Shown here piece by piece: positions 1,569 to 11,260 of a DNA stretch of 22,328 nucleotides (position 1 is the stretch's first letter; every line of letters begins with the position of its first letter). The position numbers and the translations under genes were made by a program. Origin of the DNA: a virus; the IMG/VR virus record IMGVR_UViG_3300042446_001048, positions 1-22,328 of that record. The stretch is one strand, 5' to 3'. The notes below the pieces were generated by a model, which was not told the origin of the DNA, did no database searches, and saw only the letters and a list, made by a program, of their open reading frames with translations.

Positions 1569-1919
1569 TTAGGAATTGATTTTCATTTGTTCAAGTAATA
1601 AGGTTGTTCTTGCTTCAATTGCTTTTAGGATTTCAACAGCTTCATTTTTTACAATGTTGCTTTGAGTATCAAGCACTTCAGATATTTTATACGCAAAATC
1701 CATACCCAATTCATACAATTTTTCATCTTCGGGACAGTTTCCCCTATCTCTAGGTAAAGCTTCACATAATTGACCACAAGCACAGGTCACCCAATTATCT
1801 GCAAGAGCATTTGCTTCTTCTAAGTGATCTTCACTTATTGATTCTATGTCTTGATCTAGAAATGCAAACCAATCAAAGTCTGGATGATAAGGGTCTACTT
1901 TGTCTTCTATATTACTCAT
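1569..1919 (-). CDS. Uncharacterised phage protein with CxCGxLC motif, 116 aa
   Basis: A leftward gene, the last of the 5933-1569 cluster. Residues about 38-60 carry ALADNWVTCACGQLCEALPR, followed by PEDEKLYELGMDFAYKI. A TCACGxxC core followed by a hydrophobic helix is a pattern I have seen in small conserved phage proteins of unknown function. The Cys spacing (CxCxxxC) could hold a metal, but a fourth ligand is not obvious. The C-terminal 40 residues look alpha-helical (VEILKAIEARTTLLLEQ). The leader is A/C-rich (AACAACAAAACAATAACTCA) with no Shine-Dalgarno sequence. It ends 6 bases from the terminator of the convergent unit. Confidence 0.75.
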   Translation of the reverse strand: MSNIEDKVDPYHPDFDWFAFLDQDIESISEDHLEEANALADNWVTCACGQLCEALPRDRGNCPEDEKLYELGMDFAYKISEVLDTQSNIVKNEAVEILKAIEARTTLLLEQMKINS

Positions 1920-1937
1920 TGAGTTATTGTTTTGTTG

Positions 1938-2318
1938 TTAAACTAGATCTTTGACAAATTTACCATCAACCATTTTCCCTGATCTTTTAGAAATCACGTC
2001 ATAGGCTTGCTGTAAACAGTCTTCAAGAGTGAAACCATACATCTCACATACGCCAATCAAGGTTACTACGGTATCGCCAATGCCGTCTTTGATTTCATTG
2101 AGAAGATCAAGACATTCGTCAGCACCAACGCCAGATTGTAATTCCACATTTGCACCTAGGTATTTCAATTTGACCACTGCGTCTCGCGTTTCAGTAAGCT
2201 CTTCTTGTGTTTTCTCTAATTGCTTAAGAGGATTGCTGTTTTGAATGATTTCTTTTGCGTAAAACCATTGGCGTGTTTTATAAATTAGTTCATCCATAGT
2301 ATAAATTGGTTCATTCAT
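1938..2318 (-). CDS. mazG: MazG-like nucleotide pyrophosphohydrolase
   Basis: A 126-residue protein with the all-alpha NTP pyrophosphohydrolase layout. It has the EExxE metal-binding motif at residues 39-43 (EELTE) and the second ExxD motif at 75-78 (EIKD) followed by GIGD 79-82. The C-terminal segment (LEDCLQQAYDVISKRSGKMVDGKFVKD) is typical of phage-type MazG-like proteins. The family hydrolyses NTPs or dNTPs to the monophosphate and pyrophosphate. Phage members are thought to clean the nucleotide pool or to affect (p)ppGpp-linked starvation signalling; which applies here cannot be read from sequence. The ATG at 2318 lies 5 bases after the upstream stop. Confidence 0.9.
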   Translation of the reverse strand: MNEPIYTMDELIYKTRQWFYAKEIIQNSNPLKQLEKTQEELTETRDAVVKLKYLGANVELQSGVGADECLDLLNEIKDGIGDTVVTLIGVCEMYGFTLEDCLQQAYDVISKRSGKMVDGKFVKDLV

Positions 2319-3339: not shown

Positions 3340-3351
3340 AATGATTAAAAG

Positions 3352-3425
3352 CGCCCTGAGCAAGATTTGAACTTGCAACACCCGACTTAGAAGGTCGATG
3401 CTCTATCCAATTGAGCTATCAGGGC
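3352..3425 (-). tRNA. tRNA-Arg (anticodon UCU)
   Basis: Read leftward, the 74 bases fold as a standard cloverleaf. Acceptor GCCCTGA pairs with TCAGGGC. The D-arm is GCTC...GAGC. The anticodon stem TCGAC/GTCGG encloses the 7-base loop CTTCTAA with anticodon TCT. The T-arm GCAAG/CTTGC has the canonical loop TTCAAAT. The discriminator is G and no CCA is encoded. It would read AGA (and perhaps AGG) codons, which are used in the rightward structural genes such as the large terminase. It sits between two leftward protein genes and is probably cut from their transcript. Confidence 0.95.
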
Positions 3426-9440: not shown

Positions 9441-10040
9441 TTAATGTCCGTAATTGCAACCGATCATGGCCAACTCTTGGCCAACAATGATTAGTTGATC
9501 AACGAATCTACAGCATCCATTAGCTTTTTGCACTTCATACTGCGTATAACTTGCAGCGTCTGACAGAACCGAATATCGAACATTGTCCATGTATTCATAA
9601 TTCCTATCGTAAAGCCAAACCATGACTTCAGCTTTATTATTGAAGACTATTGGAGTAGGTGTCTTTCCACGCAATGTTTGTTCATTCACATCCACAATCC
9701 ATGGCGACAACAAAGGCTCCCAATTTGTAATTGTGTTTGCGTCCTTAGCACTTGCGCCATGTGGAACAAATACTGTCATATGTGGATTATCTTGCTTGCA
9801 TTCAATCCGTTTATTAAGGAACGGTTTTAATGCCATTACCCCGCTTGAACTTACTCCTGCGTGGGTAAACATTATTGTTGTTTCATAGTTGAAGTCGTTA
9901 TCATATTCATCAACGTCATATTGCAACGTGACATGATGACAGTGTAACGTGCCTTGATCCACTTTGATGAAATCAAGGTAGTGACGCAACAATTCGATTC
10001 TCCATGCAGGAGATATTTTTAGTGCTTTATACATTACCAT
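9441..10040 (-). CDS. 2H phosphoesterase-like protein, 199 aa
   Basis: Two H-x-T motifs in hydrophobic strand contexts, H36-V-T38 (LHCHHVTLQY) and H87-M-T89 (NPHMTVFVP), are the defining signature of the 2H phosphoesterase superfamily. The segment between (TTIMFTHAGVSSSGVMALK) fits the linking strands. Superfamily members act on 2',3'-cyclic or 2'-5' phosphodiester bonds in RNA end repair and tRNA ligation, and in phages include the anti-CBASS nuclease Acb1 and PDEs that degrade signalling nucleotides. The 51-residue spacing is on the short side but reasonable. The C-terminal ~90 residues are unassigned. The leader CTACACACAAAT ends in ATATG with no Shine-Dalgarno sequence. Substrate cannot be deduced. 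Confidence 0.6.
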   Translation of the reverse strand: MVMYKALKISPAWRIELLRHYLDFIKVDQGTLHCHHVTLQYDVDEYDNDFNYETTIMFTHAGVSSSGVMALKPFLNKRIECKQDNPHMTVFVPHGASAKDANTITNWEPLLSPWIVDVNEQTLRGKTPTPIVFNNKAEVMVWLYDRNYEYMDNVRYSVLSDAASYTQYEVQKANGCCRFVDQLIIVGQELAMIGCNYGH

Positions 10041-11121: not shown

Positions 11122-11246
11122 CCTACCAACGTGGTAGGTTGCAGCGAGAGAAATATGACCTTTAGTTGACTAAACGGGTTTATAACACCCGAATACGTGT
11201 CTGGGCTTGGAACCAGAACTGCCGCATTACACCGCCAAAGCGGTGT
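11122..11246 (-). ncRNA. Run of stem-loops in the leader of the 114-aa gene, possible structured RNA
   Basis: Read leftward, five stem-loops follow one another: ACACCGC-TTTG-GCGGTGT (11246-11229), TCTGG-8 bases-CCAGA (11217-11200), CGGGT-GTTATAA-ACCCG (11191-11175), the repeated element TTTAG-TCAA-CTAAA (11174-11161), and CCTACCA-CGT-TGGTAGG (11138-11122). All stems are perfect. The region is between two protein genes and no frame through it looks coding. It may be a regulatory leader or a free RNA. Confidence 0.45.
11161..11174 (-). repeat. TTTAG...CTAAA element within structured leader
   Basis: Read leftward: TTTAGTCAACTAAA, the only well-matched copy with T rather than C at the first loop base. 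It abuts the CGGGT/ACCCG hairpin. Confidence 0.75.
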
Positions 11247-11260
11247 CCTCTGCGAAGGAA

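Follow-up and report, generated by a model that had tools for sequence, protein, structure and literature searches.

A compact 2H phosphoesterase joined to a phage-specific GCC/GCNYGH domain: a likely RNA-end-healing enzyme

What does a phage do with a 2H phosphoesterase? The question is raised by a gene at positions 9441 to 10040, on the minus strand, of the 22,328-nucleotide stretch analyzed here (the window), a 22-kb virus fragment (IMG/VR record IMGVR_UViG_3300042446_001048). An initial annotation offered two answers, destruction of cyclic oligonucleotide signals in the manner of the anti-CBASS protein Acb1 or repair of cleaved tRNA.

Results

The gene encodes a two-part protein. The open reading frame of the initial annotation was recovered as 199 amino acids plus a stop codon, and the strand, which had not been given, is minus. 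Sequence comparison indicates that the gene is real and under purifying selection, as dN was 0.027 and dS was 0.151 relative to a close relative with a 94% identical protein (L004), and both halves were constrained. Residues 1 to approximately 118 form a 2H/CPD-type domain, and residues from approximately 125 to 199 form a separate one, the GCC/GCNYGH domain. Thus, the C-terminal half that had been left unassigned is a real domain in its own right. The protein had also been called longer than Acb1. The whole protein is longer, but only through the fusion of an independent phage domain, and its 2H part alone is shorter. A PADLOC search with the protein gave no match, and the Pfam family DUF5932 scored an E value of 0.015, below the cut-off.

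The N-terminal domain (residues 1 to 118; positions 9687 to 10040, minus strand) is, from its sequence, a compact 2H phosphoesterase, as had been proposed. Members of the 2H superfamily carry two H-x-T/S-x motifs in which x is hydrophobic (PMC5434554), and the only H-x-T/S motifs of the protein begin at residue 36 (HVTL) and at residue 87 (HMTV). The corresponding catalytic motifs are H36-V-T38 (9927 to 9935, minus strand) and H87-M-T89 (9774 to 9782, minus strand). Counting HxT motifs alone is weak evidence, because at least two arose in 7.6% of 20,000 shuffles of the same protein; two H-hydrophobic-T-hydrophobic motifs arose in 0.035%. A clade profile built without the protein nevertheless scored it at 48.1 bits, whereas 1,000 shuffles reached 8.9 bits at most, and when L084 (37% identical to the protein over 86 residues) was also left out, the scores were 26.6 bits and 10.2 bits for the best shuffle. 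We note that L084, L085, L087, and L091 emerged, among chance matches, from a scan of viral contigs for a DNA pattern containing both motifs, and therefore the motifs in those four are not independent evidence. By way of L084 and L085, relatives were found in crAss-like phages (Kolpuevirus and PhiCrAssBcn1), in jumbo phages (Atu_ph07 and Phosso), and in Bacteroides phage DAC19. A further 45 viral loci were fetched after the profile test, and in an alignment of 34 clade sequences, H36, T38, P86, H87, and T89 were invariant. Both HxT motifs of the initial annotation are thus present, with the H and T of each conserved throughout the clade.

A 2H fold would turn both histidines toward a single pocket. 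The N-terminal model was fairly confident (mean pLDDT of 67 to 94 per ten-residue block over residues 1 to 110), and all four of its best Foldseek matches in the PDB were to the 2H domain of AKAP18, though weakly (E values of 0.04 to 0.13). Among viral models, the best match was a Cafeteria roenbergensis virus protein (3e-5) and the second was an annotated Marseillevirus RNA ligase (8.6e-3); a coronavirus ORF2 protein ranked lower, and Acb1 ranked sixth (E value of 0.07), behind three giant-virus proteins. No protein family library named the N-terminal domain directly. When the PDB was searched by sequence, the queries being the whole protein, the N-terminal part, a relative, and the clade profile, only chance matches came back. 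Phage and plasmid sequences searched by tblastn with the N-terminal part likewise gave chance-level matches only, and one candidate relative from that tblastn search (L074) was rejected as a different protein.

Which branch of the 2H superfamily the domain belongs to bears on its function. The Pfam family tRNA_lig_CPD (PF08302) matched five clade relatives or their records above the cut-off: L085 (8.7e-8), the record of L101 (1.8e-11), L102 (4.3e-6), L094 (5.3e-6), and L103 (6.9e-6). The protein itself did not match PF08302 above the curated cut-off; because only other clade members pass, we file it as a relative of the tRNA-ligase CPD and not as a member, and its link to that family runs through its relatives. 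The Acb1 profile (PF23474) matched nothing in eight records, comprising that of the gene and seven that carry relatives. Moreover, the catalytic histidines are 51 residues apart in the protein and mostly 49 to 50 apart in the clade, whereas those of Acb1 (H44 and H113) are 69 apart (PMC9117128). We conclude that the 2H part belongs to a phage clade related to the tRNA-ligase CPD and not to Acb1.

Proteins fused to or encoded beside clade members are largely RNA-end enzymes. Clade domains are fused to an AAA_33 P-loop kinase in L133 and L137, to HAD_SAK_1, a Swiss-Army-Knife HAD and RNA-repair phosphatase, in L103 and likewise in L125, to the head of a CCA-adding enzyme in one viral protein (L107, 1693 to 3222, plus strand; PolyA_pol, 8.6e-37), and to an ADP-ribosyltransferase in L119. 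Among 86 neighboring proteins, CCA-enzyme domains occurred five times, HAD_SAK_1 four times, and RNA ligase once, and in PhiCrAssBcn1 the clade gene has a TROVE gene nearby. RNA_ligase was found in 6 of 9 clade-bearing records longer than 50 kb, in 9 of 20 records with the C-terminal domain, and in 1 of 20 controls of 40 to 95 kb, counts that are supportive only, because the records differ in size and relatedness. Searches of the 22-kb record itself turned up neither an RNA ligase nor RtcB nor an AAA_33 kinase, and the RNA-repair pathway is incomplete within that fragment.

The C-terminal domain (residues 125 to 199; positions 9444 to 9668, minus strand) is essentially phage specific. It matched phrog_33577, a family of phage proteins with no assigned function, with an E value of 5e-9, and the characteristic DNxR, GCC, and terminal GCNYGH (9444 to 9461, minus strand) are all present over the roughly 75 C-terminal residues. 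The part also matches small stand-alone phage proteins, and indeed family members are mostly stand-alone and 70 to 120 amino acids long, whereas here the domain is the tail of a 2H enzyme and carries GCCR in place of the usual GCCG. At 66 viral loci with the domain, all 63 open reading frames that were extracted end exactly in GH, the histidine being the last residue, and among 50 sequences of the domain an R, the CC, a G, an N, a G, and the terminal H were invariant. A zinc site formed by the conserved cysteines was considered and not adopted, as L033 and L050 have another residue in place of the GCNYGH cysteine. The model was confident (pLDDT of 93.9) and arranged as strand-helix-strand-helix-strand-strand, and neither fold nor sequence gave a convincing match in the PDB. 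An exact motif scan of a genome collection yielded one true match in a bacterial assembly, a Phycisphaerae MAG (L079), and by that scan the domain is nearly absent from bacterial genomes.

Among the CPD proteins examined, only those of this phage and of three close relatives (L089, L003, and L004) carry the C-terminal domain. In L070 and L071, the fusion partner of the domain is instead a P-loop kinase domain (AAA_33, 9e-13; phrog polynucleotide kinase, 8e-8). The neighbors of the domain shared no common theme. The domain also ends longer proteins whose N-terminal parts are unassigned (L030 and L037; L023 and L079).

Discussion

How the protein acts may be read from its relatives. We consider it likely that the protein heals RNA ends as a 2',3'-cyclic phosphodiesterase and belongs to the tRNA-ligase-CPD branch of the 2H superfamily. 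Metal-independent nucleases or a self-cleaving ribozyme would cut tRNA or other RNA and leave a 2',3'-cyclic phosphate end, which the paired HxT motifs would hydrolyze to an open phosphate, which the fungal and plant tRNA ligases suggest would be a 2'-phosphate, and a kinase and a ligase would then complete the repair. Cleavage of host RNA may be the main source of such ends, the enzyme would probably act against that cleavage, and the C-terminal domain might place it on broken RNA. Of the two uses first suggested, RNA-end repair is favored, given that the tRNA-ligase CPD family matches relatives and that RNA-repair enzymes are fused to them.

One close known counterpart is the CPD of the fungal tRNA ligase Trl1 (PF08302). 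Both have two HxT motifs, phage relatives match the region of the profile around the second motif above the cut-off, and kinase-CPD fusions occur in both the phage clade and Trl1 (PMC5434554). The phage domain, however, is far shorter, approximately 118 amino acids against a 250-position profile, and the protein has the GCC/GCNYGH domain in place of an attached ligase or kinase. The associations of the clade mirror the kinase-CPD pairing of the yeast tRNA ligase (PMC5434554). They also mirror the role proposed for 2H phosphoesterases of jumbo phages, RNA repair by clearing of 2',3'-cyclic ends (PMC7824862). Those proteins are likewise phage borne, and the jumbo phage Atu_ph07 has a clade member, but they come from other phages, and the part of the source consulted does not describe a fusion to the C-terminal domain.

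What is new is the arrangement, a compact 2H enzyme joined to a GCC/GCNYGH domain; the kind of enzyme is known, and no new system is implied. The gene, at first a candidate anti-CBASS factor, is now placed on the RNA-repair side of phage-host conflict, and a widespread, unnamed phage domain gains a first functional hint, as it sits at the C terminus of two different types of end-healing enzyme. We speculate, with considerable doubt, that the domain is an unrecognized phage-specific RNA-repair module that brings end-healing enzymes, the CPD here and the kinase in L070 and L071, to broken RNA, and that stand-alone copies partner with separately encoded repair enzymes. Should the domain indeed direct such enzymes to RNA damage, many small phage proteins now called hypothetical could be tested as RNA-repair factors.

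Might the enzyme instead destroy the cyclic oligonucleotide signals of CBASS or type III CRISPR? Acb1 (PF23474; PMC9117128) belongs to the same superfamily, has the HxT/HxT tetrad and the 2H fold that is predicted here, and was among the structural matches, and two proteins encoded near clade relatives match Acb1, so such phages do face CBASS. Acb1, however, is a single domain of about 150 amino acids, its profile found nothing in the record of the gene or in seven related ones, its histidines are spaced more widely, it placed only sixth among viral structures, and the partner domains of the clade are RNA-repair enzymes. An Acb1-like role for the predicted enzyme is unlikely.

Free small cyclic phosphates, such as ADP-ribose 1'',2''-cyclic phosphate or 2',3'-cyclic mononucleotides, could also be substrates. 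The ADP-ribosyltransferase fusion in L119 is consistent with such a role, and a step after KptA-type reactions has been proposed for the 2H proteins of jumbo phages (PMC7824862). Most fusions and neighbors are nonetheless RNA-end or tRNA-end enzymes, and we regard free cyclic phosphates as quite improbable substrates.

A local source of RNA ends lies nearby. A type-P5 twister self-cleaving ribozyme (11201 to 11254, minus strand; RF02684, 56.5 bits, gathering score of 37.6) is located approximately 1.2 kb upstream of the gene on the same strand, both in the window and in L089. The 2',3'-cyclic phosphate end that a twister leaves on cleavage is the expected substrate of a CPD, and the ribozyme is therefore a possible companion of the gene, though not a generally conserved one. 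In L004, a probable type-P1 twister takes the place of the type P5 and lies about 440 nucleotides upstream of the gene (1903 to 1957, plus strand), with 43.6 bits, below the gathering score of 67.2. That the gene belongs to a ribozyme cassette, in which the enzyme processes the end made by the phage's own twister, is very doubtful, however, as the twister-P5 sits inside a variable block, roughly 1.5 kb long, that is missing from L003, other members of either domain family had no twister at gathering score near them, and 43 other viral stretches that bear a twister (386 kb) encode neither domain. Similar twister cores were found on 44 viral stretches, some of which have two. A general link between twisters and CPDs was rejected, as the pairing was not repeated at loci elsewhere.

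Other features were noted in passing. In L004, the sequence CCGCCCTGAGCAAGGCGTTAAACTGCTC is present twice near the P1 twister, and the second copy follows a fragment that matches the first part of the window's twister letter for letter. The window also carries a MazG-like pyrophosphatase (1938 to 2318, minus strand; phrog_715, E value of 8e-29) and a phage-borne tRNA-Arg with anticodon TCT (3351 to 3425, minus strand).
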